Assembly (NCBI GenBank): GCA_020091685.1
Contig: CM034592.1
Span: forward strand, 35,874,350 to 35,938,349
DNA: 64,000 nucleotides
From: Lutjanus erythropterus
Lineage: Eukaryota > Chordata > Actinopteri > Lutjaniformes > Lutjanidae
Direction: 5' to 3'
The notes under the pieces were generated by a model. The model saw nothing but the letters and a program-made list of their open reading frames with translations, made no database searches and was not told where the DNA came from. Position 1 is the first letter of the stretch, and the number at the start of each line of letters is the position of its first letter. Both the position numbers and the translations under genes were made by a program. Of the stretch, positions 34,438-57,379 are shown piece by piece.

Positions 34438-34669
34438 ATGCCGTCCAAGCCTGCCCCAATCAAGAAGGCGGCTAAGAAAGAACCAGCCAAGAAGGAGGAG
34501 AAGGCTCCAGAGCCAGCACCAGAGCCGGCTCCTGAACCCGCACCAGAGCCCGCCCCGGCTGAAGCCGCCCCAGCCCCCGCCGAGGGCGAAGCTGCACCTG
34601 CTGCCGAGGGAGAGGCTGCCGCCCCGCCAGCTGAGGAGCCCAAAGCCCCCACCCCTCCACCCGCAGATG
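34438..34669 (+). CDS. mybph: mybph exon 1: Lys-rich head and Pro-Glu-Ala repeat
   Basis: Encodes [19 protein letters not shown], then [17 protein letters not shown], then Ala/Glu-rich repeats ending PPADG. A basic N-terminal head joined to a Pro-Ala arm recalls the actin-contacting N-terminal extension of long essential myosin light chains; that parallel is inference. The exon ends in phase 1, which sets the phase for all following mini-exons. Confidence 0.9.
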
Positions 34670-37600
34670 GTAATGCACCGAGCGCAGCGGCGCGTGAGCC
34701 GAGACTTAACGTCCTGTATACCGAATACCTGTGTTTCATTTCTCACTGGATGAGACTCGGATGAGTTGTTTAACCTTTTAATTTAAGCCAAAGTAGTCGG
34801 TTCATCTCACGGTAAGCACGCGGTAACCTTTACGCACACGCGCCTGTGCGCGCTCAGTGCGAAGGTGCAGTAGATACGGTAGGATGAAATAAAAGGGAAC
34901 CTGCATGGTTAACTTACTGCATAAACCGCCTGCTTGGACTATTAGAGTTCTAAACTTTACTGGAAGTTGTACTTAAAGGCGCTTTGCCTTCTTTCAGCGA
35001 AACTGCGTGATGTTAACTTGTAACTTTATTGTTAATATGCGCTTTTATACATCAGACTAACAAGCCAGCATTAACTAATATAAATATCCAAATAACTTAT
35101 TAAAAAAAGAAAGAAAAAAAACATAAGACGCATATTAACAACTGTTCTATTACTCTTTAACATCATCTCCAGTGTACATTGATTCAGGCATCTTTCTAAC
35201 CTCTAATATCTACATCAGCTGCTCCCACTGATGAAGCTGCTGCTGCTGTCGCTGCAGAACAGCCAGCCGCCGAGGGTATGATACCCTCAGAGCCTGAGGA
35301 GTATCTCACTTACCACCTAACTCACTCATTTCTGCACATTGTAACTTCTCCTTTTGTATTTTATTTCATATTTTTTATTTTTATTCGTTTAACCTCTGTT
35401 CTAACATTTTGAAAACGTTATGAAATGTTTTCAAAATGTTATGTATCTATTGATGTCCTCTAACCTCTTATATCAGCTGCTGCTGCTCCCGCTGCAGAAG
35501 AAACGCCGGCTGCTCCCGCTGAGGCCCCTGCTGATGGTAAAACAGACTATCAGTGGATTAACAGACTTCTTATATAACTTGTTATTTAAACTTGAACCTC
35601 CTACAGTAACACTAACCACACTAATATTTAACCCTAACATATTCTAACCTCTAATATCAGCTGCTGCTCCTGCTGTAGAGGAAACACCAGCCGCTCCAGC
35701 TGAGGCTCCTGCTGATGGTAAAACAGACTTTTAGTGGATTAACTGATATCTTATATTATTATATAAGTATCATTAAAACTTGAACATCATACAGTAAAGC
35801 TAACTATACTAATATTTAATGATGATATAATGACGATGATATCTTCTAACATTTAATAGCTAACCCTATTCTAACCTCTAATCAGCTGCTGCGCCTGCTG
35901 CAGAAGAGACACCAGCTCCTGCTGCTGAGGCCCCTGCTGATGGTAAAACTGGAATAATACCCAACTTCTTAAAATCCTGAACCTTGATTTCCCCAGGATA
36001 CTACAGTAAAGCTAACTACACTAATATCTAATGCTACATTTGTAATAATCAAGTTAAGAAAACTCATAAATTCAAGGCAGCAGCCTTCACTAGATTCTTT
36101 AAAATCAAATTCAAACTCTTAAGTTTTAAAATAAACGAAACAAAGTTTTGCCAATCTATGATCTTTTGTTGGGATAATGTATGTTTCTTCATTGGATAAA
36201 CTTGACTGTTTTGAGTTTTATACACCCCAGATTTGTATCATTTATGTGTTTGACAATTAAGTGGTTGCAATTGAAAATATTAAATCATTGACCTTTCGCT
36301 TCAATGAAACACTGCAAAGTTTTGAAATACAATTGTTTTGGGGTTCTAAAGTCTGAAGTTTATCTACAGAGGAAACGTGAATTGTCTCAACAAAACTTTA
36401 TTAGTTGGCAAAACTCTATCGAAACTTTTAGTTGAGTTGGGCGTAAAAATCAATTGAAGTAAGCTGCCTTGACGTTTTGAGTTTTCTGAACTTTTTCATT
36501 TTTACAATTGAATATCTTCTATCTTCTAATATCAAATGGTGATATCTTTTAAAATATCTCATGCTAATATCTTCTAACATCTAATATCTAATGCCGATAT
36601 CATCTAACGTCTGATATCAGCTGCTGCTGCTGCTCCCGCTGCAGAAGAAACGCCAGCCGCTCCAGCTGAGGCCCCGGCTGATGGTAAAATCGACTATCAG
36701 TGGCTTAACTTGTCTTATATAAGTTTTATTACAACTTGAACCTCCTACACTAAAGCTAACTGCGCTAATATCTAATTCTGATATCTTCTAACATCTAATA
36801 TTTCCTGCTAATATATTCTAACCTCTAATATCAGCTGCTGCGCCTGCTGCAGAAGAGACACCAGCTGCTCCTGCTGAGGCTCCCGCTGATGGTAAAAGAA
36901 AAAAAAAAGAACGTGGAATAATAAACAACTTTTTCTTTTTTATTTCCAACTTTTTATCATTAAATCTTGAACCATCCACCTGCTACAGTAAAGCTAACTG
37001 CACTAATATTTAATTCCAAAATCTTCTAAAATCTCACGCTAATATCTTCTAACATCTAATATCTAATGCCGACATATTCTAATCTCTAATATCAGCTGCT
37101 GCTCCTGCTACAGAGGAAACGCCAGCCGCTCCTGCTGATGCCCCTGCTGATGGTAAAAAAAAAAAATCACATGAGCCACAAAAGATATCTTGTGTATATA
37201 TATATATATGTATAATATATATACTGAATTTGAATCTTCAACCTCTTGCGGTAAAGTTAATGTTACTAACTTCTACATGAGCCCATTCTGCAGTCTAAAC
37301 ACACTCAGCATCATCTGTTAGAACATGTCCCATCTGCTCAATGCACTAATTATTAATATCTAACATTCAATAATAGCTGCCCCCGCTCCAGCTGCAGAGG
37401 AAGGTGCTCCCGCTGCTGATGGTGAAGCGCCTGCTGATGGTAACAGAACATGTTCACTCCTCTGTCTTTAATTTCTCAGATAGATTATGTCATGTGAGAT
37501 AAATTGGATAACGAGCCCTTCAGTATTAGCATTGTTTGACACAGAGAGCTGTTGTTTGATGCCGTAGCATTGCTCCGCTCATCACATGCTGCCAATAATA

Positions 37601-40600
37601 ATGCAAATGCCTATTTAACATCAGCTGAAGCTGCTGAAGCTGCACCGGAGGAGCCCAAAGCACCCACACCTCCACCCCCTCCACCCAAAGGTAACCTTCA
37701 GTTCAGAAAGAAATCTCAACGTGATTATACCTTCATATCTTGTTCTTTTCTTTATTACAGTGGTAAAATAAAGACTGCGTCATCGCCTCTTATGAACCTC
37801 AACTTTGCACTGATTTCTGATTTGAGCGTTTCTGCCCCTTTGCAGCTGAATAACTGATTTTTTTTTCCCTTGGCGTTTGCAGAGCCCACAAGCGCTCCAC
37901 TGGACCTGTTTGTTGAGGACAAGAACGACACCTCGGTTTCTATCATCTGGAGCCAGCCAGAGGTCGTCGGACACTCCGGTCTGGATGGATACACCATTGA
38001 AGTCGCAAAGGACGGAAGTAAGTCCTGCAAGTCCTGCTCTGCTTTTGCACAGGTGCATGAGAAGGGTCAGATTATTAATACACTGTGGTAAAAGCTGACC
38101 TTTAAATTACCGTGAAAAGTCTTATTTCAACATCTGATTTTAGGTTTTTACATTAAATATAGTTATATCTCTAAATATCTATAATTTTATCTTTGATCTT
38201 TAAATGCTTTTTAAATAACCTCGGGAACCTGTTAAATTGCCGCTTTAATGTGGGTCAGCCGTATCGGTTGCAGCTGTTCCTGAAGTGTCACTCGCAGAGT
38301 TATATCATGAGCTACCTAACTTCTCCCTACAAGGAAAGAGGCATTTCAGGAGCTGCTGTGGTCTGAGCTGCTGGAGGTCCTGCTTTTAGACTTCCTGCCT
38401 GAAGCTATTATCAGCAGACAGCACACGCTGGTTACCCACAGAACGGCAAATTAGTATCTCATACAAGAAATTTGTGTCAAACATAATCACTCTGTATCCG
38501 TTACAAAGCAAAAAGCAGCACTTACTGTTCTAATCTATTAATTCTGTATGAATTAGATCTGTTCTTCTGCAGTTCTCACAGTCAGAAAACATTATAATCA
38601 CAGTCTCAGTCCTGTAATATCAAGATAAACATCACTTCTGTGAATTGCATTAGTCTATCTTCATTTTGTATAATTTTCCCTCTCAGCTGATGACTGGAAG
38701 GCAGTCAATGAGGATCTGCAGAAGTCCTGCCGCTATGTTATCAAGAACCTGACCACCGGCGACCGTCTGAAGATCCGTGTGGTGGCTGTGAATGCCGGAG
38801 GCCGCAGCCCCCCAGTCGCCCTCCCCGAGGCCGTCCTGGTGAAGGAAGTTGCTGGTAAGAAATGTTCACAAAGACAGAGCGAGATTCATTTCAACACGAG
38901 AAATGAACTTCTCACCCTGTCATTTTACCATTTTATCACAATAATCATCTAGAAATGACAGATAAAATCAACCTCATTGATCCCAAACATGGAAATTGAG
39001 GGGACACAGCAACAAAATGAGGGGCAAAAGCATCCTATAGATAAGTATCCTGAAATATTATATACAATATGGGCATTTATTAAAATGCAAAAATCCACAA
39101 AAAAAACAGTGAGAAAGGGCTTCGCAAATGTATCAGTGATGGGTGCAAAAAAACAAGAGGGGAGCCATTAAATGCAGAAAAGTGAAAAAAAATTAATATG
39201 CTAAATATGGGCACAAACACAGGCAATAATTTGCAAAAGGGACAAAAAAAAGGCCCTTTTCTATCTAATATGTTCAAAATGAAGCAAAAATAAAAGGTAC
39301 TATACATATGTAAATAGTAACTACAAAGTCTATTTGAGTCTAAAATAGTCACAAATAAGTGATAAATCAGACTGTAAACGTCATTATTAGGCTTCTTTTA
39401 ATTTTGTTAAAAATGGTACCCAAAGACTGCATTGCACTGACAAAGACTGATTTAATCTAAGATTAGATCTAATCAGATTTAGCTAAACTAGGTTTAAAAT
39501 GAAAAAAAAAAAATAGATTTAAAATTAAGAAGAGCTCAGTTGCACAATTAAAAACTAATCTCAGTTTAGTACTTTCAGGTTTAGTGATGTAAATCCTCAT
39601 TAATATGGAGATGATTGCTCAATCAAATTAAAATGAATACATTTGAAAAAAAGTTAATTCAAGTGCTGTCAGGTCCTAGCAAGTACAAGTAAATATAAAA
39701 GAGGAGGGGAACCATTAACCTTCAGCTGCTCTGTATTCTTTATCAAAGTGTTACATTGTTTGCTAGAAAACTAAAAAAAGTTAACACAACGTTACAATGT
39801 TTGTTAGCTAAAAGAGTTGCTAGCTACTTGTTGGCCGAACTGAACTGGACTGAAAGAAAGAAGAGATGCATCATAAAAAAGAGAGGGAGAGAAACTTGAT
39901 TATTTTTCTCAATCCATCTCAAAAGGTCAGGCATTCAAAAGTTGAACCTCCTCAAGTGTAAGTTTTAATACTGGATCATGTTTTAAATTGGAGTTTAAAG
40001 TATTTAAAGTTACACAATTATTTAATCAGGTTTAATCGCCGCTGCTACCCAGCCAAAAATGTTGGACTCAACCCCAACATGACCAAAAATTAAAACCAAA
40101 TCACCAGTTCTAATTTAAATGAGAAATGTTTATTTAAATTTGTAATTGGTTTATTACATCAGGACAGTTTGTACCGTAGGACGCAGGTCTGGCATGACGT
40201 TTACTGGGACATTTATTATGGGAAAGGGGAGCTGTAAAAGGCAGGAGTCAAACAGAAACAGCTCAGCAATGTTTTCTTCTCAGCTGTCCGAGTCCTGCTG
40301 TTGGCACATACCTGCAGTGTTAACAGCATAAAACTGGGGTCCTCTGGCTCGTTTCCGCACTGATCCACCCAACCACAGTGTGATAATCACACGCGTGTTA
40401 AGCAGGCAGTTGTACTGATGCCGAAAACCTTCCAGCGATAATCACAGACAGTATATCTAAATTGATTTGCGGTAAAATGCTGATTGGACCCCGAGGGCTT
40501 TAAAAGGAGGAGCAGCGTTACTCTGGCTCCCTCACAAATCATCGTTACGCGTAATGGAGACCTGAACAGGAGGGGGCGGCAACCTGATCCCAGCTGGACT

Positions 40601-43600
40601 GGCAATACCTCAATAGTCAGGTCCATGTTCACCGTCGTGCTCGCCACAGCAGCAGGTCCGCATATAGACGCAACTTATGAATGGTTTCCGACAAAACGGC
40701 CACAAAGCTTTGGAAAAATAGCTGGGATGTCGCCGCTATTAACACAGATTCTTCTGCGGAGGGGTTGGCATTGCATTGTGATCCCTGCAAGGACTCACGC
40801 TGAGAGCCGGTGTCGGGCTCCTTTTCCGCAAGATCGATGGTGACAAGTGATCCGACTGCAAGCAGGTGGGGGGCTGCGGGGAAGGGGAGGGGGTGGATGG
40901 TAAATTCCAGTGTGCCCCATCTCTGCATTAAGGGGGGGGCGTTGGGTGGGGGTGGGGGTTGGATCTAACTTCTCAGGTGACATCCCAAATCTCATGACAC
41001 TTCCAGAGATCCACTGTTTATTTTGAAACATGCCACAGAGAGGATGTTCATTAGGCTTAATCCTCTCTGTATGAAGTGATAAGACACTTAACATGTGTTA
41101 TATTTGTTCTAATGTACACCAAACAATTTACGATCTAGTTTATGTTTACGAAACAGTTGATTACTGCGCCCTTATTAATTCATCTATAATTTTAATGTGC
41201 TCTGATGAGAGTGGGAGTAACTGAAGCTCCCAATCCTGCGTCATAGAGGAGGTGATATGCTACAGTACGTCGGCTTAATTTAGAGTCCTGACAAATGTTG
41301 CTCTGCTGGACTCAGCAGGTGGTGCCTCTCACCAAATCACTTTTACAAATGAGCCTCAGCAAGATTCTTCTGAGGCTTAAGTATCATTTCAAACGTCACA
41401 GTGGCTAACTATCTTTATGATTTTCTTTTTATGATTATTGATGGGCTATTTTGGGCTTTTTATAACCTAGCGCACAGTGGAGGGAGCGAGGGAAGCTTAG
41501 AGAAGAGGGAAGGGGGTTAAATGCAGCAGTGTGGACTCACACAGTTACATTAGACACATGTAAATAAGCCACCAGAACACCTCATGCCTGTGATGTTATT
41601 ATTTAGGTAATTCCCTACCTGCAGATACACACCTCTTACGGTCATAATTTCATGTGTCAGTTCAACTTAATCTGTCCAAATAACACAATAATACATATCA
41701 GCTTGCGCATAGGACAACTAAATAAAACAGACTAGGAAGTCTTTATAAAGTCTTAAAAATCCAAAACTTTGAATTTTAGGCCTTAAAATGTCTTAAAAGG
41801 TGACAAAGGAAAGTCAAATGTCTTAAATTCAACTTTGACAGGTCTCAAAAATTGATTGGATTATGAAGATAATGTTACTTATATGAAGTTGCACACCATT
41901 AACAACTACAAAACAAAAACAATGTTGAACCAAGAACCACAAATACAAAATAATAACTTAAATTGTTGAGCTTGTTTCACTTTTGTAGCATCATTAAAGT
42001 CTGACCCCGCACGACCCAATCTGCACAAGCACTGTTCTGGGACTCGCACAAGTATGGATGTGAAACAGGTCTTAAATTTCATTCATGATGATTATTAAAA
42101 GTCTTAAAATTAACTTCAAATCTGCGTAAACCTTGAGCAGGGTTCATGTATCAAATGCAATTAAAAGTTTTCCACCAACTACAATGAAAAAAGAAAGATA
42201 TGTAAATTATTATAATGAGAAAACTCAAAAAAAAAGACTGAATAGCGCAAAAAATAATGACTAAATGTGGAAAATAATGATACATTTTCTCAAAATAATG
42301 CCATAGTTATATTGTTAGAATTCTTGTTAGTTCAAATAAGTTTGACACCAAAAAAAAAATTTAATATCTCAAAATTATGTCTTATCTTGAATAATGACAT
42401 ACTATCTCAAAGTAATGAGTTAGTATGTTAAAATATGACTTAGTATCCTAAAATAATGAGAATCCCTCTCAAAATAATGACAATAGAATCACAAAATAAA
42501 GAGAAACTTTTTCAAAATAATCGTTATTTTGAGCAAGTTTGTTTTTTAATGACCCACAGGATCTTTTTTCATCATATTTGAAAAAAAAAAAGGTTTCCTT
42601 AAATATTAAACAAAAAATTATTAAAACAACACCTATTTTATATTTTATAGATTCATGCAATATAAAAAAGGCAATAGGCAAATCTTAAAAAATACAGTAT
42701 ATAGCCAAAACAGAATACACAAAAGCACACACAAATATTAAGTATCCTGCTGATTCCTGTCTTTCAGTTTATCCTCTTCCTCACATTTTATTTAACTTCA
42801 TTATAATCTATACAGAGCCCTTTTTGTCCTGTATTCTGTTTCACTGCTTTAACACATCATGCCATAAAATTAAAATGACAGGCATGCACCTCTGAGTAGA
42901 CAGAAATATAACAAAAGGGATAAAGGACTTAGAATACAGTTACTTTTATAGCCAGTTAAATCACAGACGTCCTCTGATGGTGCCAGGGAAGATTCCCCAG
43001 CTAAAATGGGCTTAGATCGGCTCAGCAGCTTTATCGATTTCCTCAGGATTTGTTGGTCGCAAAAGAAAATTAAATCTTCTTGCTTCACTCCAAAAAAAAT
43101 CACTTTGCACATCCTGGAAATCCTTTTCTACCATCGCTGATCCCCTGCGGAACCAGCAGATAAAAGAACTTCAAAAAGGCTTTCAGTATAAGTGCTGTGT
43201 AAATGTTGACTTGCTGTAATAGTCATCTGTTGTTTTTCGTTCATTGTTTCTCTCTCTAGATCGTCCAAAGGTCCGCCTGCCTCGTTTCCTCAGGCAGAGA
43301 TACGTCGCTAACGTCGGTGCTAAGATCAACCTGACCATCCCCTTCACTGTAAGCTGATGATGAGCATCTTTCATCAAATGCATGATGAATACAGCTACCC
43401 AAATAACCCGTTAAAATTCACTGTCCGATTTCCCTTTTTTTATCCACTCAGGGCAAACCCAAACCCGTGGTCACCTGGACAAAGGATGGTAAGCCCCTGG
43501 ACACGAAGAGGGTGAACATCCGCAGCACAGAGAGAGACAGCATCCTCTTCATCCGTGCAGCTGAGAGGGAAGACTCTGGAGTGTACGAGATGTGTGTGAA

Positions 43601-44731
43601 GGTGGACGACTTCGAGGACAAGGCTCCACTCACCCTGCAGATTGTTGGTGAGCCGAATATTGAGATTCTGTCAGAAGGAGGGCGTACGATTGACCCTTCT
43701 GAAGTCTCGCCCCTTTTTGGTCTGTGCTCCAATAACAGTTGAGCAAGCTTGGTACCCAGCAGAACCTCGGGCAACTCTCTCCTTTCCTGTTTCCTGTGTG
43801 CGACATTTTTTTAATCCCAGAATGCCAAAGACATCTCCAACCCTGCTCCGCTTCTGATTGGCTAACCCTGATATTCTTACCCTAGTGACTCTCCTCATGC
43901 CTAAACCTGCCAAGAACCTACCAAACCCAAACGACCAAAGCCCGTAAAGGCAACGAGATATGCTATGTGCTCGTTAGCTAGCTAACGATTGATATAGATT
44001 AGCTAACTAGTTAGACAGAGCAAAAACTTTAGCTAACTAAGTAGCAAACAAATGATGTAGAATTTAGTTGGAATTTTCAACTAGAATGCCTTCTGAAGTT
44101 GAATTTCCAAAGTCCAAGGAACCTCATCAACCCTGACCACAAAATCCAATATGGCCGCACCACACATCAACTATAATGAAAGCTGTTTACTAGTACTTGT
44201 GTTTGATTAAATCAGCTGTACATACAGTACTGTCTGTGGACAGTGTTTGTATGCCCAAAATACCGTGGAAAACTTTTGATGTCCAAGTTAAATCAAGCGC
44301 ACCTTAAGGAGAAAACTGACAGAGCTTCCAAAAGGGGCGGGACTTATGAAGAGTCAACTGTATCCGGTATACAGTGAAGAACAGTGTTTTTGATGCTTAT
44401 TTTGGTGTGATAAGATTAATTTAAATTAATACGTTCTTAATCTGCGCCTGGTTGTTCACAGAGCTGCCTGGACCTCCTGCCAGCGTGAAGATTGTTGATA
44501 CCTGGGGCTTCAATGTTGCTCTGGAATGGACTGCACCCTCCGACAACGGAAACACAGAAATCACAGGTTACACAATCCAGAAGGCCGACAAAAAGACTGG
44601 AGTAAGTTTTTTTTTTACAGTGTAAAAGGTTGTCTGATGTGTGGTCATAGTGAAATATATATGATGATTGTTAATAGAAGGATAAATTACACACAGTAAA
44701 TCCTGAAACCACAAAAGTTCCTCTTCTAATA

Positions 44732-44764
<33 letters not shown>

Positions 44765-47700
44765 TTCTTCACTGTGTGTGTGTGTCTCTGCAGGACTGGT
44801 TCACTGTGTTGGAGCATTACCATAGACTGAATGCCACCATTTCTGACCTCATCATGGGCAACACCTACAAGTTCAGAGTGTTTGCTGAGAACAAGTGCGG
44901 AATAAGCGAGTCTGCTAGTACTGCAAAGGAGGAGGCTAAGATCCTGAAGACAGGTACCGTTCTCTTTTATTGCTCCTTGACTAACAGGGAAACAAACACT
45001 ACGGAATTAATTTATTATTTCCATTGCATTGAGTGTGCGTGACTCTACGAGTGTCCACTCTGTCCGCAGCTAATCTCAAATACTACTGGACCCATCAGCC
45101 GAGGGTTTTTTTTTTTGCACACATTTATGACTGTATGCTCACAGACCTCTTGTTGTAGTGACTCAAACATTTTTTATAAACCATAAAAACCTTATTTTAT
45201 TATCTGTTTTACCAACTGCTAACTCCTCACTGCTTTTAACCAGTCAGTAGGGGCCACAAATGACTTCTAAGCTGAAAACAAGACTTGCCTATTTATCTGT
45301 TGCATGCCATATTTTGCCTTTGTCATGGCTCAAAAACTGTCATCCATAGAAAAGTTTGGTGGAATCTGCAGAGTAGGTCCATAGCATATATTTTAAGACC
45401 CACTTAAGTTAGGCACAATACAAAATGAATAAATCCCCGTTTTTGTAAAGCCACCAGGTAGCTTGTAATTGTCTAAATTAATAACAGAATGTTATAAAAC
45501 GTTTGTACTTGTTGTCCCATTTATTGTTTCATTATCAAGTTTATACAGTTAGGCGACCCCCGAATACTCGATTCCTATACCATTTCATGATTCTATGCAT
45601 CTTAAAGAAAACTGAAACTATACTTTACAAAAAACTTCATTCAAATATTTGCCAGTCTCTGCTGGTTGCATTTGTCAGTTGTGGTGGCATTGCAGTAGGT
45701 GCTTCACCATCTGTTTCCTTGCAGAAATCTGCTCTTCTTTATTAGAACATTTTTAACTGCATGGCAACAGATGGATTACAGATAGCCATTAGTTAACTGT
45801 TTTCAGTGGTCTTCCCCTGAAAACCTTAAATTGAATATAATGTTTTAATTTGTGTATAATCACCTGAAAATAAAAAGTGTTGTGTTTTTGTTACCTTAGA
45901 ATAAGCGCAGGTCCTCTTGCATGGAAGACGCCATGTTGCACCACCATCTTTGTAGTCTCTACAGTAGCCCAGAATGGACAAACCAAACACCGTCAGTAGA
46001 TATTGCATTTTTCATGGACACTATAGTTTCTCATGTATGCGTGAGGCAACTTGTTTGTAATCTGCAAACTCACAGTTAGATGCTGCCAAATCCTACACAC
46101 TTTTCCTGGATTCAGATTTAAATTTCAGTCAATCTGAAGGGTTTAGGTCCAAGATACTTATCTGCTGACCCATATGAACCTGAAAGACCCCTCAGGTTGG
46201 CTGGTTCTGATTTACTGGCAGTTCCCGGAGTCAAAGCTAAACATGGTGAAGCTGCCTTTATTTTCTGTGCTGCTCAAATGTATGATGATGAGACAATTCT
46301 GACCATTTTCAAATCCAAGCTGAAGCCCGACCTGTTTAATATTCCTTTTAATTAATTTTATGTTAATTATATAGTTTTTTGCTTGTTTGCTTTTATTGGT
46401 TTTATTCAGTGGGTTTTTGCTTGTTTTCTTCTATTGTTTTTATCATTTGTTTATTGTGTTTTTGTCAGTGTACTCTGTAAAGCACATTGGGTTGCCGTTG
46501 GGTATGAATTGTGCTATATACATAAATTTGCCTCACTATTCTCTTCTAGTTCTTTCATAGACAGAGATGTAATCCTGCATACAGTTGCACAAGATTGCTA
46601 CCGTGCAACTGACCTTTAGGTTGATCATTGAGGACAAAAAAAAGGAAGAAAAAGAAATGATAACACATTCTAAGAACTGTTGACTCAGATCATTCAAGCA
46701 AACTGATGGGCTTCAAAAAAGACTGGACTGACTTACAGTCACATCATGGTCAAATCTCTTTCTCTTCCGTCCTCCAGGTATTGACTACAAGCCTCCTGAG
46801 TACAAGGAACACGACTTCAGCGAGCCACCCAAGTTCACCACCTCTCTGACCGACAGAGCCACCACCGTCGGGTACAGCACCAAGCTGCTGTGCTCCGTCA
46901 GGGGATTCCCCAAAGTACAGTAACATTTTGTTTTTATTGCTTGACCAGCAGCATGTTATGTCGTTTTTTCCAACTAAACCAACAGCAAAATATTAGCACC
47001 TCAAGAGCAACATGAGCTAGCACTGGATCTCCATGGTTATAACTCCTTGTTTTGCTCAAAATCTGAGATTCAACATGATGCTACATTTGAAAAACTGATA
47101 TTATTCTTTAAGCAGCACCTGCACATATTTCGTCTGTCAAGTTCGGCTTCCCAACAGTGTAATTCATAAATTTCAGCATGTTTCCAGTAATATGTGGAGT
47201 TCCACAAGGGCTGACTCTCGGACCTCTGTTAGTTAATCTTTACTTTCTCCTACTAGCTAAAATAATTCAAAATTTTATAGTTTCATATCACATGTACACA
47301 AATGACATGCAACCAAGCCATAATTTTAATTACAAAACATTTTACAAATCTAAATACTTTGGACTGATGCTTTTAAACAAGTCGCTGCCAGCTGATTGTC
47401 ATTTATTTTGTGAAATTAATGGAAACAAATCAAACACAGGGATGCAGTCTAAACACTTAAACATGTTTGGGAAAAGGTTTGAAGTTATCTAATGGGTGAA
47501 ACTTACAAAACCTCTTACAGCAGTCCCGGGATTTGGCATGTTGAAATGCAGAAGTTTAGCGAGCTGTAATTTCTAACTGATGAACGAGTGTTGTTTTCAG
47601 TGTTTGTTGGATCAAACTGTAACACCAGCACTTGTCAGCAGCTCGGCTTTGAGCTGAGAATGTGTAAGATCTTTGCCTGACCTTGTTAGCCTGCTGTCAG

Positions 47701-48414
47701 AGCCTCTCACCTCCTGTTTGGGCTCCTAATCCCACCGGGTCACAAACAGGACAGTTGAGGTGGATGGTCTTGATGAGAAGGCTAGAATTGGTGTTCTTTC
47801 CAGGAGAGGAGGATAGGAGGCCATAAGGGTGACAGGTCAGCAGGGAAGCGGGGTCACATGTGTAACATTCCCTGCAGGGCCCCACGAGGTCTGTGCCATT
47901 AAAACTCCCAAAGCAGGCGTGTGCTGTGTGTCCACTTCAATCAAAAGGGTTATTTCTTGCCATGTAGCACAAACAAAAATAGAACCACCACTGCTGCTTG
48001 TTTATTTGTGTGATGATTGCTGTGAGGGGATGAAACGCCCCTGCAGGAAATCATGCGCAAATCACATAATGCATAATCTAAATCTGTTTACTTCTGCAGC
48101 CCAAGGTTCAGTGGATGAAGAACCAGATGATTATCGGAGACGACCCCAAGTACAGGCAGATCTGCGTCCAGGGTATCTGCTCTCTGGAGATCCGCAGGCC
48201 CGGTAACTTTGACGGTGGCGTGTACTCCTGCAAAGCCATGAACGATCACGGAGAGGCAACTGTCAGCTGCAAGCTGGAGGTCAAACGTAAGTTAAAAAAA
48301 AAAAACTCTTGGTGTAAAAATTGTGTTGAAGTTGGAGCATTTAACCATTTGAGAGCTAATAACTTGTCTTTGCTTTTAACAGAGCCAGGAGCTGCAGATG
48401 CAGAGAAGAAATAG
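34438..48414 (+). CDS. mybph: Myosin-binding protein H (mybph), complete, 19 coding exons
   Basis: Exons: 34438-34669, 35219-35275, 35477-35536, 35661-35717, 35886-35942, 36621-36683, 36835-36891, 37096-37152, 37377-37439, 37625-37690, 37883-38017, 38687-38854, 43260-43348, 43452-43647, 44462-44601, 44794-44953, 46778-46914, 48100-48286, 48383-48414. They total 2013 nt (670 residues plus TAG). The domain order is a Lys-rich head, a Pro/Ala/Glu-rich stretch (to residue 256), FN3 (257-357), Ig (358-452), FN3 (453-552) and Ig (553-670). FN3-Ig-FN3-Ig at the C-terminus is diagnostic of MyBP-H, which binds the myosin rod in the thick-filament C-zone. Human MYBPH is about 477 residues, so the fish protein is longer almost entirely at its N-terminus. 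MyBP-C genes are excluded because they carry many more Ig/FN3 modules. The ATG is preceded by CTCCAAC and follows the TATA box. Confidence 0.93.
35219..37690 (+). CDS. mybph: mybph array of nine mini-exons encoding a Pro/Ala/Glu repeat
   Basis: Nine exons of 57, 60, 57, 57, 63, 57, 57, 63 and 66 nt, all phase 1-1. Most begin CTGCTGC after ATATCAG or ATCAG and end CTGATG before GTAA. The repeat unit is close to [19 protein letters not shown]. The six exons from 35477 to 37152 are near-copies: 35477 pairs with 36621, 35886 with 36835, and 35661 with 37096. The introns after paired exons are also similar. The last exon (37625-37690) returns to [14 protein letters not shown], like the end of exon 1 ([13 protein letters not shown]). 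Any mini-exon can be omitted without a frameshift. Confidence 0.88.
37883..38854 (+). CDS. mybph: mybph first FN3 domain (two exons)
   Basis: Exons 37883-38017 and 38687-38854 encode [71 protein letters not shown] and [16 protein letters not shown]. The W...Y.(I/V)E pattern and the GD.LKIRV.AVN.GG strand are typical of the fibronectin type III fold of MyBP proteins. Confidence 0.93.
40867..40894 (+). other. G-quadruplex-type motif 1
   Basis: Four G-runs (6, 4, 4 and 5 Gs) separated by CTGC, AA and A, on the sense strand of mybph. A second such motif follows within 65 bp. Confidence 0.65.
40932..40960 (+). other. G-quadruplex-type motif 2
   Basis: G-runs of 8, 3, 5 and 5 Gs separated by CGTT, T and T. 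Same strand as motif 1. Confidence 0.65.
42200..42540. repeat. Degenerate CAAAATAATGA tandem repeat
   Basis: About ten imperfect occurrences of AAAATAATGA or CAAAATAATG, spaced 20-35 bp, typical of a decayed low-complexity array in fish DNA. Confidence 0.6.
43260..43647 (+). CDS. mybph: mybph first Ig domain (two exons)
   Basis: Exons 43260-43348 and 43452-43647 encode [39 protein letters not shown] and [19 protein letters not shown]. It is an I-set Ig domain with the core Trp and the DSGVY motif. The usual first core Cys is replaced (INLTIPF), a feature I also associate with muscle intracellular Ig domains. Confidence 0.92.
43687..44360. mobile_element. Tc1/mariner-type MITE, copy 2, with TA target duplication
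   Basis: The left end CGATTGACCCTTCTGAAGTC and the right end, in reverse, CAGTTGACTCTTCATAAGTC form inverted repeats that extend through GCCCCTTTTTGG/GCCCCTTTTGG. TA dinucleotides flank both ends (43685-43686 and 44361-44362), as expected for Tc1/mariner insertion. Length 674 bp, no coding frame. It lies in the mybph intron after 43647. A related copy is at 26894-27852. Confidence 0.75.
44462..44953 (+). CDS. mybph: mybph second FN3 domain (two exons)
   Basis: Exons 44462-44601 and 44794-44953 encode [60 protein letters not shown] and [29 protein letters not shown]...I.GY and GN.YKFRV.AEN.CG are strong FN3 signatures of the MyBP/titin family. The acceptor of the second exon follows a (CAT)n run and a GTGTGTGT tract. 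Confidence 0.94.
44732..44764. repeat. (CAT)n microsatellite
   Basis: Eleven CAT units in the short mybph intron 44602-44793, close to the downstream acceptor. Confidence 0.95.
46110..46535 (+). pseudogene. L2/Maui-like LINE fragment, C-terminal ORF2 and 3' tail
   Basis: Forward reading gives pieces like [19 protein letters not shown] and [18 protein letters not shown], then [10 protein letters not shown], matching the end of L2-type ORF2 proteins (PSRSLRSS..., KT.GEAAFSY.AP..WN, FKS.LKTHLF). The 3' end has the typical TGTAAAGCACATTGGGTTGC. Stops and frameshifts are present. It lies in the mybph intron 44954-46777. Confidence 0.65.
46778..48414 (+). CDS. mybph: mybph C-terminal Ig domain (three exons)
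   Basis: Exons 46778-46914, 48100-48286 and 48383-48414 encode a linker ([19 protein letters not shown]), then [20 protein letters not shown] and [20 protein letters not shown], then a 10-residue tail ending ADAEKK. The paired Cys of LLC and YSC and the WMKN Trp show an I-set Ig fold. In MyBP proteins the last Ig is the main myosin-rod-binding module. The intron 46915-48099 holds an L2-like LINE piece. Confidence 0.92.
47150..47492 (+). pseudogene. L2-like LINE reverse-transcriptase fragment
   Basis: [20 protein letters not shown] is followed by a YTND motif where active enzymes have YADD. GVPQGS.LGPLLF is the conserved block before the catalytic YADD box of L2-type LINE reverse transcriptases. 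The altered catalytic motif and lack of flanking domains mean a dead fragment. Since the RT piece lies downstream of the C-terminal piece at 46110-46535, they come from separate insertions or a rearranged one. Confidence 0.65.
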
Positions 48415-49635
48415 GTCAACATTCACATTCTCACAGGTCAGAAATAATCATGATCTTATTTGAATATCTTTCTTATAACTATGTTTGATAAATACACTTA
48501 AGTCAAACACAAATATAAATCATACTCAGAAAATATACATGCAAACATAGTCTATTATTTTTGGAATTAAACTTGTAGTTTAGTTGCACAGCATGCAAAA
48601 TTGTGAAATTAATGCAATTAAATGGGACGTATTGGATAGGTTCGTCTATATGAGTCCTGAGGTGACATCTGCCGCCTCTGTGACTTACTTTCCATACATG
48701 GAGGCACTAAACTTGGAAAAGGTGGCCTCTGCCACTGAAAGAGTCCAAGAGGTAGCACCCATAAATTAAATCTGTGGTGGCTCCTCATGTGTACGCGGTT
48801 TGGTGACTTAATCACATTTCCTCGACTCAGCAGCAGCAGCAGCAGCAGTAGCCTCCTTTAAAAGGCTGAGATACAACATTTAATTAGCAGGTTACTCTCT
48901 CAATTCTAACACATATCAAACATTTCAGACTTGTACTTTAGTCTGTGTGAAGGTTTTATACAATGCTAAACTGCTGGATAAAGTTTACTTTTAACACATA
49001 TCACAGTAAATACAGAAAAAGGTTCATGCATGCCTTATTTCTTAAATTCTTCTACGTGATTCTGAATCACTGCCGTCTCTACAACTGCAGCACTCGCTCC
49101 TTTTTAACACCTGTTGTTGTTTTCTGTTCATCTGTTGCAATCCCAAATTAGGAGCAGAAGGAATGAGGCCTTTGCAGCATAAGGTGCGTGACACTTTTAG
49201 CGCTTCTAAAACTGTCGTCCACAATCATGAATGAATAAAGGCTTTAAAGTTTCCGTTATTTCTGTGTCTTTACAGGAAGGTGCTGGATTCCTGCAAGAAC
49301 ATGTATATATGGCTGGTGACCACGCTGCCAAAGGGTTGTTGCTTGTGGCCCCTCGCCGAGTGTTACCCTGTGTCATGATGAACATTGTTGTCTTCGCTTA
49401 ATGCCTTTATCGTTCACTACATTATATTGAGTCCGTATCCATGTCCACAATCAGCTTTTTTCCCAACGATTCTGTCTATGGTAACTAAATTATCACATTT
49501 CACTATTCCTCCCTTGTTAGTGTAACTAGATGTACACCAAGAATTTTACAACATTAATTTACTGTTCCTCATAGGAGAACTACATGTAACATGTATACGC
49601 GTTTATATCAATAAATAATTTAATTTCTGGTTTTG
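48415..49635 (+). other. mybph: mybph 3'UTR, probably split over up to three exons, with poly(A) signal
   Basis: After the stop, a weak donor (ACAG-GTCAGA) is at 48437. A possible non-coding exon at 49152-49183 has a good acceptor (CCAAATTAG) and donor (GTGCGT). A further acceptor (GTGTCTTTACAG) opens an exon at 49276 that runs to AATAAA at 49610-49615 with T/G-rich DNA after it. Non-coding terminal exons occur in this family. The exact splicing is inferred. A (CAG)n run is at 48829-48849. Confidence 0.45.
49610..49615 (+). terminator. Likely mybph poly(A) signal AATAAA
   Basis: ATCAATAAATAATTTAATTT is followed by GGTTTTGTTTTTTTC, a typical downstream U/GU-rich element. Confidence 0.6.
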
Positions 49636-50943
49636 TTTTTTTCAATACAGTTTGTTCTTTACATTGAAATGTCCAGCTGAAGTGTGAAAATGCTTCCACT
49701 GTTTACAAAAGGTTGAAAAGACGATTTAATATTCTGCTGAAAGGGAAAATTCATGGTGTTTAGTGTGGATGTCCAGCCAGTGTTGATGATCATTTTAATC
49801 AATTGAAACAGCGAATTCCTCAGAGTGTGCTATATTGACTGAGAATGTTGAGTTGTTCTTCTCACAGAGCTGTGCTATGCCTGCATGTACCAGGATGCAT
49901 TGCACATCTGATGCTCATACCCATGTTGCTGTGTATCATCACCCTGGCCAATAGCTGTTATTTTGTTGGACAAAATAAATATAGCATTAGGTGACAAAAA
50001 TACTCTCCCAGCATTCCCCCTGGCTGCCCAAAGGAGCAGACTATAAATCCAAGCTGTAATGGCCTGTAGTTCTTCCTTAACACCAACTGCATCACTGTGA
50101 CAGTGTTGATGCTGCAAGGAAAACAGATTTTGCAGCACTAGAGCTCAGCTTTCTTGGTCAATATAACACACAGTGAGGAACTACATGTCACTATGAACCA
50201 TCAAGACCGACTGGATTCCACATAAAGTGGTGACTTTTCCCTTTAACATACGTATGAACAGTATTCTGCACACATAGTTACTCTAAATAACTATCTGTGT
50301 GCAGTTTTTATGAGAAACCGATGAAAGCTGCAGTAAAGCAGGGACTCTTGACTGTATATCTATAAATTATTTCATAGTTTTGATTTATACTGATCTTACT
50401 GATAAATGAGTGACTGAGTTGCTTAAAGTTTAATTATTTAGCAAAAATCTGTATATTTACTAATCATTTCCAGTATGTTTCCAGGAACAAACTGTGTTTA
50501 GTAGACATTTTAGGAAAGGTTTTAACTGGTACATGTCCATTTAATTAATTTCCATGAATTGCAAGTGGAAGTGAGAATTGTGAGTTAGTGTAGAGCAGGT
50601 TCAGCTCAACATGCAAACATATGAGGAAATGTGTATCGACACAATACAAGATACTGTACATAACAAATAAAAAATCCAATAATAAGTGACAAATTCATAT
50701 TTTGGTATATTTGTATATAAGCAATTTTTTGTTCAAAGGAAATTAATAAAAGGTTATCAAAGAAGAAAAATGTGCACATCTGTAGTTGGACAGATGCATA
50801 AAAGAACATGTCGACAATACAGAATAAAACAAACAAAAAAAGCACTGTCCTCTTCACTTGCAGTCAGAAATATTTAATTAATAGCAGTGTTTTGGTAAAC
50901 AGACAATCTGCAATTTAGAAGACAGACCACAATGAAGTGATTT

Positions 50944-51110
50944 ATTAAATCTTTATTATTTATCTTTTATTCTTTTTACGGCACCTTCCACAACCAGAGT
51001 AACAAAGTGCTTCACAGAATACAATACCATACAATATACATGGAAAGACAGCAAATAGCACAAAACAAAGTGCATACCCAAAACAGCAATAAAAACAAGA
51101 ATGTGGTATT
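50944..51110. repeat. Short LINE/SINE-like fragment
   Basis: The string TACGGCACCTTCCACAACCA followed by AAAGTGCTTCACAGAATA is a recurring fish repeat phrase that resembles the reverse complement of a LINE tail. Family not assigned. Confidence 0.4.
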
Positions 51111-52461
51111 ATTCAAATGTCGATCTGCACAGTTAGAACCAAATCTTCATGTTAAAAGGTTACAAAAAATTAAAACTGAAGTGCATTTAGCGGTTACAGA
51201 AACTCAGTTTTTGACAGGACTAACAGGCTACACTAACGCAGAAAGCTCCTGCATCTTCAAATTGATCGAATTACTTTCCACTACAGTTTCACTCAGCTGC
51301 TGAACTGTATGAAGGCCTGTTGGCAGCAGCAGACCAGTGAGAATCTGGAGACAGCGGCACTATTCATTTGGCTCACAGAGACCCAGGAGAACATCGCAGT
51401 ATGCCAGGACCGCCATAATAATAATACCAGACGATAATACTGATCTTGTAACTATTTGGACTTGGAGTTACTGGCATAGTGATAGTACGGGGCAGGATGC
51501 CAGAGATATCCAGGTTACACAGACACATGAGTTCACACAGAGAGGCTGACAAAATTAGCCTCGGTGCTCCATCTCGCTCAGGTTATTTTGGGAACAAGAG
51601 GCTCCACCGACCGGCAAAATGTGCTTTCCTGTTAGGTTAGAAAACTGAAAGAGTGGAATGGAAACAAATGCAAATAGAAAGCGGGAAATATAATCATCAT
51701 TTACATTTAAAAGGATCAAAAATGCTTATATTCCCTCCCTCACTCCCTCCCTCACTTGATCATGTTAAAATTGTATTAAACAGATGTTGGTGACATATTT
51801 TGCACAAAAATAATGTTTCCCAGTAGTATGTACTCTACTCTCTATTATGCAGAGACAGTAAGAAAGTGTATTACAGTGTGTTGCATAATGAGTGATCCAG
51901 CTCTACTATGGAGGAAAAAAAAAAACACTCTGACTGTTTGAGTGTGGCGTCCTCTGGTGTTACAACTGAGCAACGACATCTGCAGGCCTCAGAAAGGGAG
52001 GATTTAAAAAGCCATTTAACAGAGGCACAGTCATAAATTGCTGCCTTCACATCTGAAAAGTGAAGAAGTAGAATTCAGCAATCAAGACAGTTACCTGCCC
52101 ATTTCATTCACAGTCCTCTGAATAGATACGTCTGCCATTTTGAGCTGCAGAATTTGCATCGTGCGGCTTTAACCTGTGGGCTGGGAGCCATAATGGGTCT
52201 CAGGCCTACTTCTGGTGGGTCCCTGGATGCTGACATGCTGCAATAGGGTCAGGGAGCGAGAGACTTTCTAATTTCGTTCCTGCGCCGAGGAAGTTTCAAA
52301 CCTCCAATGAAAAACACTATTAAATCACTGATGAATAATGTAGGTAAGTGCATATATTGAATATATTGAAGTAATATGCCTCGCATGTTCGAATCCTATA
52401 TTTGTTTTCTGTCTCTTACAGTAACCTTGACTTTGTGAGATGAGAACTGCACACATTAAAC

Positions 52462-52697
52462 TCTTTTTTTCACAGCAGCCATATTGACATGAAATAGTGG
52501 AGCAAACACAGGTGTTACCAATGATACTAATTAAGGTCCTGTTCCATTCAGGTCAAACAGAGTCAAGCTGCTGCTATTGTGCATGTTGGCTCACTAACAA
52601 GGCTCTGCTACACTGGAACAGGACCTTAATTAGTATCATTGGTAACATCTGTGTTTCCCTACTGGCTCCTATCAACATGGCTGCTGTGGAAAAGGTC
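52462..52697. mobile_element. Foldback MITE, copy 2 (near-perfect palindrome)
   Basis: GGTCCTGTTCCA...TGGAACAGGACC, AATGATACTAATTAAGG and its inverse CCTTAATTAGTATCATT, and CACAGCAGCCATATTGACAT opposite CAACATGGCTGCTGTG define arms of about 85 bp around a loop of about 60 bp. Same family as 26685-26895. The arms here are much better preserved than in copy 1. Confidence 0.85.
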
Positions 52698-52874
52698 TGT
52701 GTTGGTTACAGAGGTGTTCAGGTTTTTTGAGCAGTTTTTAGTGATGGTGAGGTACGAGTTTGTGTTTTTTGCTTACTGTATGTTTTGATTATATGTTTTT
52801 TGTGGAAGTTTCATTTAAAAAATGTGTCAGTTCTGCATGGTCTGATTTTGGAAAATTAGCCTTTTAGCAGCACC

Positions 52875-53200
52875 AGCAGTTTGTCTCTAGGGACGGCAGT
52901 GTCAGTCTGTCAGTGTGTCAGTCCATCACTTTGTTTCAGACTGAAATATCTCAACAACTATTTGATGAATTGCCATGAAAATGTGCACAGACTTTCATGG
53001 TTCCCAGACAAAGTGTCTGCAACTACTGACTCTGGTGATCCCCTGACCTTTTCTCCAGTGACACCATGATGTTTGTTGATTTGTGGTTTGACTGAAATAT
53101 TTCAACAACGAATGGATTGACAATACATTTTGTGTATTCATGCATGACTCAGGATGAACTGTAATCACTTTGACAATCCTCTGACTTTTAATTCAAAGTC
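52875..53200. repeat. Common teleost dispersed repeat (CTGAAATATCTCAACAACTA type)
   Basis: Contains CTGAAATATCTCAACAACTA, TTGCCATGAAAATGTGCACA, GGTGATCCCCTGACCTTTTC and a second GACTGAAATATTTCAACAAC. This series is one I recognise as widespread in spiny-rayed fish genomes. Class not assigned. Confidence 0.55.
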
Positions 53201-53360
53201 ATTGTCAGAACAAACTGACCAAATACCTGAAAACTGATTATATTAAGCTGTACTTTGCCTTTAGTGCTAACTAGCAAATGATGGCATGTCAACACACCAA
53301 AATAACATAGTGGACATGGTAAACATTGTACCTGCAGTACATCAGCATGAGCATAAGCCA

Positions 53361-54103
53361 TGTTTCCACTGTAAGAACTTTCCCCAGGGACTAGGAACTT
53401 TTTGAGGAACTCTGAGCATGCCCACTGCAGGGGCCCAGGGGCAGTATTACAATTACTTCCAATCCTAAGTCCTTTAAGTTATGATAGGAAGAGTCTCAGA
53501 CAGGTTTTTCCCCAAATTGGTGTTACAGACAGCAAATCTTATTTAACTTAGGAATCATTCATTCATTTAATCATTAAAACAGGCTGAAATATACATTGAA
53601 ACATGCCAAAATAACAATGGACAGATGAGTTAAAGGTTTTGGTAACATATGTAGAGAAATTCAAAGATGTTCTTTTTGGGAAATTCACAACAATGCTGAC
53701 TGCGAGGATAAAAGAGAGTGGGCTGAAATAACAGGCACAATATCTGGCATCCATTGTGTAAAAACATTAAAAGAACAGCTATATGTATTAAAGTTAGCAA
53801 ACACCAATGTTAGCTACTGTTAGTGAACACTACTGTTAGCTACCAGTTTGCTTTTTGTTCACTGTGTTTCAACACATCAACATGGAGTTACAGAAGAAAC
53901 CATGCAGACAGATGGGGTGATGATGTCAGTGTTTATAGTAGCATGCAAAACAGCTTTTCATGCGTCAGCAGGCTAATTTGCCTGATCTTTGCAGGTCTTT
54001 GGACAGCAGTGGAAATGCAGACAACAACATGCTGAAGGAACCTTTTAGTTCCTTTAAGCGTAGTTCCTGGAACTAAAAGTTCTGGTATCTCTGGGTGGAA
54101 ACG
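53361..54103. mobile_element. Inverted-end MITE (TTTCCAC termini)
   Basis: The left end TGTTTCCACTGTAAGAACTT and the right end, in reverse, CGTTTCCACCCAGAGATACC share the TTTCCAC tip, then AACTT and TAGTTCC-rich sequence. Length about 740 bp. No coding capacity. Confidence 0.55.
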
Positions 54104-54977
54104 CTATTGTTATCATTGTCAGTATGAGCTTGTTAGCATTTAGCTCACTCATAGAGCAGCTGGCTGTATTCTTGTTTCACGATTCCATTTTCATTTAATG
54201 TTTGAGGCTCATTAGACTCCCTGGTTCTCCTTTATGAAACCAGACCTACACGGCTGCCTGAGGCACATATTCCACCTCTAATGCTGAATTATCTCCTGTC
54301 TCTATTTCATCTATTATGATTTACTGCCATGAAGTCCAGCAAGAGGCAATCACAAAATATCCTGTGGCTGAATAATTGGATCCCATGAAAACTTTTCTCT
54401 CCATCATTTCCCCCTGAGGAATAGAGGGAAATAAGCACGGCGGGAAGGAAAGTTCATAAAGAGGCAGACTGCCTTCTCGATGCAGCATCTCTGACTCATC
54501 TGGTGGAGCTGCTCTAATCGTTGGTCATGCACGGAGCACTGCCTGGTTGCTGCTATGTCAAGGGTAACGCCAAAGGCAATGAAATCATTGTGGGTCCTCC
54601 TCCTTGAAGGGGGGCCTGGCTGCTATTTGCTGCAGAGGTTTTGGCAACGTTCCCGGAAGGTTTAATAAGTGTAATGGTGAAACTGGCACTCGCACCGCTG
54701 TCCTGTTGCTGCTTTTCATTAACAAATGTTGCACTGCTAAATCAGCAGGATAGACTGTCTGAGGATGCTTTTCATTTCTCCCAGACTTGTGCAGTTAAGG
54801 TGGTATGAGGAGGTGATTTATGTACAGTTTGAGGCATTTGTTCTCATGTTTAAAGACTGTTTTGGAGCAATGATGTCCCTGAGATCTCTTATTCACCTTC
54901 CTACAAACACAATGTGATGCTGCAATGTTGTGATTGTGATGTTCATTTGTGATGGTGCAACGTTCCTGAAATATTAT

Positions 54978-55235
54978 AGTTAAAATGTTTTTTTTACAGT
55001 GATGTAACCAGAACATTACAGTTAAAAAGTTACCTTGCAGCAACATTACTGCAACATTATATTTAAAAGTTAGGTTGCAGCAATGTTACTGCAATGATAC
55101 ATGTAAAATGTCACGTTGCAGTGATGTTACTGCAACGTTACACTTAAAACTTAACGTTGCAGTGGTGTTCTTGCAACATCACCCTTAAAATGTTACGTTG
55201 CAGTGCCGTTACTGCAGCGTTACACTTAAAACCCT
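54978..55235. repeat. 41-bp minisatellite with hairpin units
   Basis: Five to six imperfect units of about 41 bp. Each has GTTGCAGTGATGTTACTGCA followed by ACGTTACACTTAAAA. Within a unit GTTGCAG and CTGCAAC are inverted, so every unit can form a hairpin. Units are better preserved toward the 3' side. Confidence 0.75.
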
Positions 55236-56029
55236 GTCACAACAGTGATGTTGCATGCGACATCCAGGCAAAATAAAAAGATGCTGTTACATCATCTCCA
55301 AAAAGTGGTTGGAAAAACATACCAGCATGTTGTGGACGACACTCTGGAGTTTTAATTGGTAGGTAGCCACAATGTTACATGTGACGTTCTAGCAGCTCCA
55401 CACCTGCCATGACTTTGTGTTTGTAGTCGTCTACACAGTGACACTATCTGAAATATTTTGAAATGATCAGATTTTGTATATTTCATGCTGTTTCACAGTG
55501 GCTGAGGTAAACAGTGATTCTCTCAAACCAGCTGCATACTGGATGGATTTCCCTGGAGAAACCTGCAGTGACAGTGTGATGCAGCTCTCCCCAGCTGTTC
55601 AGTGTATGACATCAGGTGCTGTATTGATTTCAGATGTCAGAATGAGACTTCATTATGTCAATTAAATTAAATTTGAGGCTCTTAATTATTCACAGAGACA
55701 GCTTCTTTTTTTCCATTTCTTATATGTTATTGGACTGATCTTAAAAGAAATGCTCATAAAACACATCAAATGTCAGGTTGTTGAGCTGAATGTTTGGTCT
55801 GCAGGCGACATCATGCTAGATTTAATGCTCTTCTTCAATATGCAGTTTGACTCCTGCTTGACTTTTACACTTTTTGTTTAATTAGATGACTCTATAATCT
55901 GTCTCGTTAATGAGGCAGCAGCAGCAGTGATCTGTGTCACTCCTGCAGCTCATCCCACCTTCTGCTCGTCTGAATTATTCACGAGTTACATGTTCGATGC
56001 CTGTAAACAAGAACGGGAAGAACTAGTTG

Positions 56030-57190
56030 TCTTTTAATGCTGCTGCTGAGCCTGCTGGAGCTTCACATCAACTGCTGCTAGAGAGAAAAAAAAAAAAAAA
56101 GAAAAACAACAACTTCCCATCTGCCTGCCTCTACACTGCAGCAAAACCAGCCTGAGCAGACCGGTAACTCCCCCTCACCCTTCCTCCTCCCCCCTCCTCT
56201 CCCTCCTGCTATCCTCCCTGGTCCTCACACCTCACTGCACTCAGGTTCCTGCAGAGTTCCTGCAGCAGTGAGGCACAGGACCTAAAAATCAAGCTCTGTG
56301 TATGTGTGTGAGAGCCACTGCAGACTGCCGGTTTACCATCTTCACCTCTTTCTTTTCATCACTCATCGATTCCCCCTGCTCTTACACTTCCCTCCCTCTC
56401 CTCCTGCGTCTAATTCTCAAAGCTCAGCACTCCCTGTATGCCTGTACTGAGAGGAAAAAAAGTGATGGAGCAAGAAAGAAAAAGAGGAGGAGCATAGTTG
56501 TTAGTGCGCCACAGAAAATCTAACCCCCCCTCCCTTACCCAATTGATGACAAGGAGGGTTTTTATTGAGCAGTTCCTCAGCCAATGAGCGAACAGTGCCG
56601 GGAAATACAGCAGTGGAACTGCACCGGCTCTGATGCTTGTGCTGATTTCAGTGTGTTAGAACAATGTTAATCTGTGTGAGTGTTTCGTCTCCCCTCTGCC
56701 TGATCTGACTGAGTGTTCCTCAGCAGCACCTTAAGGAAACTCTTGTTTGAGGGCTTCTTGGACAGAAACACCCCCCAGGTGAAACTGGGACCTAGCAGCA
56801 CTGGGAGGTTTTGAGATGTCTTTTGAGAGTGGGATGAACCAAAGTGCAGATTGTTAAGATTTTTTTTTTCTTTTTCCTGCTGTGCAGAGTACATCTGACC
56901 CTGTTCTCTGCTTCCACTCCTTGTCCAGGAGGCAGCACATCTCTGTATCAAGGTAAGCAGCATTTTCTTCCTCCTCTTCTTCCTCTCTGTTCAAAGACAG
57001 CATCATCGGTTACTGGGGCTTTTGCTGCGTGCCAGGTTGTCACAGAGGCACCTAGCCTCATTACACACATCCTTTCTGAATGTGCAGGAAAAAAAAAGCT
57101 CTGCAGAGAGAGAGAGAGAAAGAGATGGACTCAGGGGTAATTAGAGCAGACGGTGTTAGCGTTTTGCCAGTCGCCTCTCATTTCAGTGTC
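56030..57190 (+). other. Candidate 5' non-coding exon region of a downstream gene
   Basis: GC-richer, purine/pyrimidine-biased DNA contains CT-rich stretches, a GCAGACCG-GTAACT donor-like site at 56161 and a strong donor AAG-GTAAGC at 56952. Another possible donor in ATGGACTCAGGG-GTAATT lies near 57137. The look is that of untranslated first exon(s) with a promoter, the rest of the gene lying beyond 64 kb. No protein evidence; identity unknown. Confidence 0.3.
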
Positions 57191-57302
57191 TTAAAGTAAT
57201 ATTAAATCTGCCTGAGTGGAACTTTTACAGCATGCCGGTAAGTCCTCATGCCTGGTGCGTAGCATCATAGTGCTGCAGTATAATGTTACATAGCAAAAAC
57301 AA

Positions 57303-57303
<1 letters not shown>

Positions 57304-57376
<73 letters not shown>
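57304..57376. repeat. (GT)n(GA)n compound microsatellite
   Basis: About 18 GT units followed, after GAGTGA, by about 15 GA units. Confidence 0.95.

Positions 57377-57379
<3 letters not shown>

Follow-up and report, generated by a model that had tools for sequence, protein, structure and literature searches.

A probably translated array of symmetric mini-exons in a mybph-type gene of Lutjanus erythropterus, and a separately built array in its paralog, as a candidate expandable spacer

Myosin-binding protein H (MyBP-H) is a short and poorly understood relative of myosin-binding protein C (MyBP-C). This report concerns a mybph-type gene within a 64,000-nucleotide stretch of the Lutjanus erythropterus genome (hereafter the window), and in particular an array of nine mini-exons that encodes a long arm rich in proline, alanine and glutamate (PAE) ahead of the folded domains. 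A known array of similar architecture is that of the titin PEVK region, the exons of which keep the reading frame. Excerpts of two titin studies describe many short, repetitive exons that code for a disordered part of this muscle protein, have expanded by exon duplication and yield isoforms by splicing (PMC6469411, PMC12241362). Small exons near the N-terminus of another sarcomere protein, fast skeletal troponin T, are also alternatively spliced (TNNT3 exons 4–8, in part of PMC2447309), and in fish fast troponin T an acidic Glu/Pro-repeat exon is omitted from some isoforms. In contrast to the array described here, the relevant portion of the latter report (PMC1919359) gives two alternative exons for the teleost protein and no long array of like exons, and troponin T is unrelated to MyBP-H.

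The encoded protein also has precedents. The myosin essential light chain A1 begins with two N-terminal lysine pairs followed by Ala-Pro repeats, and this extension, termed antenna-like, contacts actin (PMC3000078, in excerpt). The A1 extension differs in being only about 41 residues in length and in its location on the myosin head. It is not known to be built from an exon array or to be strongly acidic. A Pro/Ala-rich stretch is also found near the N-terminus of a close relative of MyBP-H, cardiac MyBP-C, where it has been proposed to bind actin and has been linked to contractile velocity across species (from part of PMC7109175). The MyBP-C genes differ in that no PAE-rich mini-exons were seen in the 9.9 kb upstream of the THB exon, on the gene strand, at four MyBP-C-like loci (4 of the 12 THB matches found genome-wide), and MyBP-C as a second user of the same device was not supported within that scope. 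Four THB (MyBP-C-type) matches also follow one another along contig C2, minus strand (36016568–36096295, about 78–158 kb beyond the window); these are perhaps a tandem gene family, presumably igfn1-like.

The mybph-type gene contains 19 coding exons, with AG/GT borders at 18/18 introns, that join into an open frame of 670 residues. The final 414 residues form an FN3-Ig-FN3-Ig core (Pfam fn3 and I-set, two stretches each), and no Pfam domain was found elsewhere in the 670 residues, unlike MyBP-C. This architecture is that of MyBP-H; the name mybph, as opposed to that of a near relative such as mybphl, is our assumption from the architecture and from general knowledge of the family. Exon 1, which carries the ATG, is followed by the nine mini-exons and then by the FN3 exon. 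The features of the gene are as follows.

34438..48414, forward strand: mybph-type gene, coding span of the gene model; two Pfam FN3 and two I-set domains, with the C-terminal end of cardiac MyBP-C as best match among solved structures
34438..34669, forward strand: exon 1, 77 residues, comprising the lysine-rich tip and the first stretch of PAE; 34612–34662 resembles exon 10
35219..35275, forward strand: mini-exon 2, 57 nucleotides (nt), from the gene model
35276..37624, forward strand: array introns, together 1935 nt, with dense YTAAY (branch-point-like) and QKI-type ACTAAY-TAAY motifs
35477..35536, forward strand: mini-exon 3, 60 nt, core type
35661..35717, forward strand: mini-exon 4, 57 nt, core type
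35886..35942, forward strand: mini-exon 5, 57 nt, core type
36621..36683, forward strand: mini-exon 6, 63 nt, core type
36835..36891, forward strand: mini-exon 7, 57 nt, core type
37096..37152, forward strand: mini-exon 8, 57 nt, core type
37377..37439, forward strand: mini-exon 9, 63 nt, a more divergent relative of the core type
37625..37690, forward strand: mini-exon 10, 66 nt, homologous to the exon multiplied in the paralog
37883..48414, forward strand: exons 11–19, FN3-Ig-FN3-Ig core; the lengths of exons 11–18 equal those of the matching paralog exons

The nine-exon array is confirmed. The original prediction placed nine exons of 57–66 nt, all phase 1-1, at 35219–37690, in exact agreement with the gene model, and intact AG/GT borders and phase 1-1 frames are present in 9/9 mini-exons, so that each can be skipped without a frameshift, as had been stated. 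The mini-exons total 537 nt and contribute 179 residues, which together with the 77 residues of exon 1 form an arm of 256 residues before the core; the predicted PAE repeat of about 179 residues and the arm length are thus reproduced by the spliced frame. Human MYBPH has about 477 residues in total, and with this figure, which comes from general knowledge, the description of the arm as greatly enlarged also stands.

The array did not arise by chance, as its repeat unit comprises the exon together with its upstream intron, and six such units of 141 nt share 60–84% identity with a reference copy. The end of exon 1 is itself related to exon 10 (40/51 bases alike; 0/500 codon shuffles score as high). 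The 141-nt unit matches six places in the genome, all of them in the mybph-type gene (937.6 Mb searched, very common words skipped), and a dispersed repeat is not supported as the source of the array. A strict pattern of the unit gave three matches genome-wide (exons 4, 5 and 7, with exons 3, 6 and 8 missed) and none for the reversed control. A scan for AG-[PAE-rich phase-1 frame]-GT used frames of 36–120 nt, or 36–240 nt for the flanking parts of the window and the minus strand. All 30 rows returned from 34670–37882 begin at or inside the nine exons, and further mini-exons hidden within the arm introns were consequently rejected. No PAE-rich mini-exon was found in the introns at 38018–48382 (36–120 nt), nor on either strand of window positions 1–34400 and 48501–64000 or in the array region read on its minus strand (36–240 nt in each case).

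Several other features of the array were observed. Four of the 30 scan rows extend beyond the exon and stop at a GT further on (36912 or 37451), and the frame indeed stays open to later in-frame GTs after mini-exon 7 (36892–36912) and mini-exon 9 (37440–37451); use of the former would insert a basic GKRKKKE stretch into the acidic arm. Mini-exons 3–8 each contain an in-frame AG after 18–24 nt (35498–37114), which could possibly serve as an alternative acceptor that keeps the frame and leaves a module of about 13 residues. Mini-exons 5 and 6 are separated by an intron with an interspersed element (36036–36510, forward strand; about 475 bp) whose terminal inverted repeats are imperfect; this element has at least 83 matching places in the genome (from 40 candidates scored out of 2,417).

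The mini-exons behave as coding sequence, since most differences among the six core copies are silent. The pooled ratio of nonsynonymous to synonymous differences per site (pN/pS) among exons 3–8 is 0.12, and 0/2000 neutral star simulations gave a value as low (mean 1.04, lowest 0.25). The variable columns number 3, 1 and 11 of 19 at the first, second and third codon positions, respectively, and exons 3, 6 and 7 encode an identical core despite 4 to 8 silent differences among them. Identity among the copies is 84–93% in the exons and 57–87% at the intron ends. This pattern of selection on the protein is good evidence that the mini-exons are translated.

A genome search with the core identified a second mybph-like gene on contig C10. 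The core of this paralog is identical to that of the mybph-type gene at 294/403 positions, and its exons have the lengths of exons 11–18 (135, 168, 89, 196, 140, 160, 137 and 187 nt), a comparison that covers eight exons, the last short exon of the paralog not having been located. In the paralog, exon 1 has 238 nt and is followed, ahead of the FN3 exon, by seven phase 1-1 exons that total 564 nt and encode 188 residues, giving an arm of 267 residues compared with 256 in the mybph-type gene. The original prediction treated the array as a feature of mybph; it is present there, but is not peculiar to that gene. The paralog array consists of five copies of a 66-nt exon, one exon of 54 nt and one of 180 nt, with borders and frame intact in 7/7. 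The 66-nt exon is homologous to exon 10 (0/300 codon shuffles score as high), a type that is multiplied in the paralog and that the mybph-type gene has only once, the related stretch which closes exon 1 not counted. Exon 7 shows a weaker likeness to the 180-nt exon (4/300 shuffles), and exon 3 no significant likeness to it (92/300). Of 15 pairs tested, the match of exon 10 with the 66-nt exon alone stands out, and homology of the other window mini-exons to paralog exons was not accepted; the core type multiplied in the mybph-type gene is thus at most weakly similar to the 180-nt exon. Since the exon 10 type is multiplied only in the paralog and the core type is only weakly like the 180-nt exon, the founders of the two arrays appear to differ, and by these comparisons both genes have lengthened this arm for the most part through duplication of different exons.

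The paralog array has features of its own. Two neighbouring exon and intron units are identical at 631/631 positions (stretch L035 8044–9371, equal to contig C10 20779143–20780470), which may point to a duplication of very recent date, to polymorphic copy number or to a mistake in the assembly. Four copies of the 66-nt exon are identical and the fifth carries one silent change (L035 8044–9951, L032 1883–1948), while identity in the 150 nt upstream is 80–83% in 6/10 pairs and 88–100% in 4/10; in these exons the silent sites, too, seem constrained or homogenised. The 180-nt exon (L032 1407–1586) contains nine copies of a 15-nt repeat encoding AADAP, which from its structure looks like a second way of lengthening the same arm. 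A 236-base unit of the paralog has five matching places in the genome, with very common words again skipped, and all are in the paralog itself.

The two arms are alike in composition and charge. The arm of the mybph-type gene contains 43% Ala, 24% Pro, 16% Glu, 4.3% Lys and 0.8% Val, and Phe, Trp, Tyr and Leu are absent from both arms. Both begin with MP(S/G)KPAPIKK followed by more lysines, with a net charge of +4 in 25 residues, and beyond this tip the net charge is –45 and –39. Similar to A1, lysine pairs at the tip precede an Ala/Pro-rich extension, here of APEP repeats, and by analogy the tip may bind actin or the myosin head. Similar to titin, the mybph-type gene contains an array of short, symmetric, repeated exons (nine, phase 1-1). 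The comparison with titin PEVK exons drawn in the original prediction therefore holds for gene architecture and fails for composition: the residues are Pro, Ala and Glu and not Pro, Glu, Val and Lys, and on this basis the array is not a member of the PEVK class. Furthermore, the gene is not titin, MyBP-H is a thick-filament accessory protein and not an elastic filament, and the splicing of titin is known whereas the present comparison is one of gene structure. The genome also contains two titin-like genes on contig C6 (about 37.41–37.47 and 42.59–42.65 Mb), with single open frames of 5,733 and 5,794 residues and Ig/FN3 repeats.

Taken together, we think it probable, with moderate confidence, that the array is a translated family of tandem phase 1-1 exons that builds an expandable, acidic, disordered spacer linking a lysine-rich tip to a thick-filament anchor. 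Under this proposal, units of exon plus intron would have been duplicated, after which the exons were held by selection on the protein while the introns drifted. The product would be a lysine-rich N-terminal tip, an acidic, probably disordered Pro/Ala/Glu spacer of interchangeable modules of about 20 residues, and the FN3-Ig-FN3-Ig core, which, judging from the family, would anchor MyBP-H to the thick filament. The spacer would set the reach of the tip, a role comparable to that of the Ala-Pro antenna with respect to the lysine pairs of A1; this view of the arm as an expandable spacer for a contact tip draws on the A1 antenna and on the Pro/Ala region of MyBP-C. Because every module is symmetric, gain or loss of exons in evolution, and possibly skipping in the animal, would alter arm length with the frame kept. 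Textbook scalings, which are not measurements, put the reach of the arm as a random coil at about 7 nm if no mini-exon is included and about 15 nm if all are; fully extended, the corresponding lengths are about 24 and 79 nm.

One step beyond this proposal, and compatible with it, muscle types or developmental stages may include different subsets of mini-exons, such that the arm would act as a splice-tuned ruler, as the original prediction suggested by analogy with titin; QKI or competition between branch points might be the switch. This is a tentative possibility that falls short of being probable. Any mini-exon could be skipped in frame, and the symmetry of 9/9 mini-exons allows 512 in-frame combinations and 56 distinct added lengths, counting zero. 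A G at donor position +5 is present in 1/16 array donors of both genes compared with 13/16 core donors (1/7 versus 13/16 with duplicated donors counted once, p 0.005), and is missing from 8/9 array donors of the mybph-type gene. The U1 pairing energies, however, overlap (–5.0 to –6.5 for the array, –5.3 to –8.0 for the paralog and –1.8 to –8.1 for the window core), and as the array donors do not form a weaker class, they were not accepted as proof of skipping. The array introns hold 54 YTAAY motifs (0/100 shuffles contain as many), up to nine in one intron and 27.9 per kb compared with 7.2 per kb in introns 10–18; this crowding may reflect multiple branch points or QKI sites. Six QKI-type ACTAAY-TAAY elements occur there as well (1/100 shuffles), versus none in the 9480 nt of introns 10–18, and elements of this type are those through which QKI works in muscle, according to part of PMC8860092. 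In contrast, the motif copies were inherited by duplication and are hence not independent, the paralog array introns contain no clear excess (YTAAY 18/100 and elements 11/100 shuffles), and no RBFOX site is present in the array introns. MBNL-type YGCY motifs are in excess in the mini-exons (54 versus 40.2 in shuffles, 0/100), a result that was set aside because alanine codons tend to generate YGCY. In the literature, titin PEVK of the elephant shark differs between heart and skeletal muscle (PMC12241362, in excerpt). One published hint concerns mybphb, which is named where genes with differential splicing in starved catfish larvae are described, with exon and event unspecified in that portion of the text (PMC13360135).

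The arm may alternatively be a drifting filler, wherein any length is tolerated, unequal crossing-over adds and removes modules, and only the copies that break frame or composition are eliminated by selection. Low-complexity arms often vary in length, and the perfect unit repeats and in-exon repeats of the paralog show that copy number changes readily. The tightly held protein sequence of the modules, the intact frame and borders in 9/9 and 7/7 exons, and the arrival of two separately built arms at 256 and 267 residues all argue against this explanation, which we regard as somewhat unlikely. It is highly improbable that the mini-exons are duplicated debris or a misassembly that lies outside the mature mRNA. 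The case does rest on genomic DNA, and the perfect repeats of the paralog are of a kind that assemblies can create; yet 9/9 frames are open with intact borders, the silent-site pattern is that of coding sequence, and the window mini-exons are not assembly duplicates because their copies have diverged.

Several points weigh against an expandable spacer that carries a contact tip. The evidence comes from the genomic DNA of one species, the 631/631 identical units of the paralog could in part be an assembly duplication, and chance may account for the similar arm lengths of the two genes. Acidic actin should also repel a spacer that is strongly acidic. In addition, the contact between A1 and actin is weaker at higher salt (PMC3000078, in excerpt). 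A bolder version of the spacer proposal would place MyBP-H alongside titin as the sarcomere's second element of tunable length. In this version, which is in our view unlikely, separately built arrays of largely different founders would give arms of similar length (256 and 267 residues), and splicing would set the reach of the tip at about 7–15 nm and so decide whether MyBP-H can touch the thin filament. Elsewhere in the window, upstream of mybph, long open frames at 3277–26528 resemble exons of a neuron navigator gene, which we take to be nav1.

Exons of a related kind are known from titin PEVK and troponin T; the array in mybph and the second array in its paralog appear to be new. No earlier description of a mini-exon array in mybph was present among the matches listed in a literature search, which did not cover the main J Gen Physiol 2024 study of MyBP-H in developing fast muscle (10.1085/jgp.202413604). 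The presence of separate arrays in both genes suggests that arm length matters in muscle, and it is the best sign that length or overall composition, and not exact sequence, is what counts. Should the arm prove modular and selection act on its length, a natural experiment would be available across species, paralogs and isoforms, in which arms of 77 to 267 residues could be compared with the folded domains unchanged. Because the paralog unit is perfectly repeated, the length of the paralog arm may vary even between individuals.

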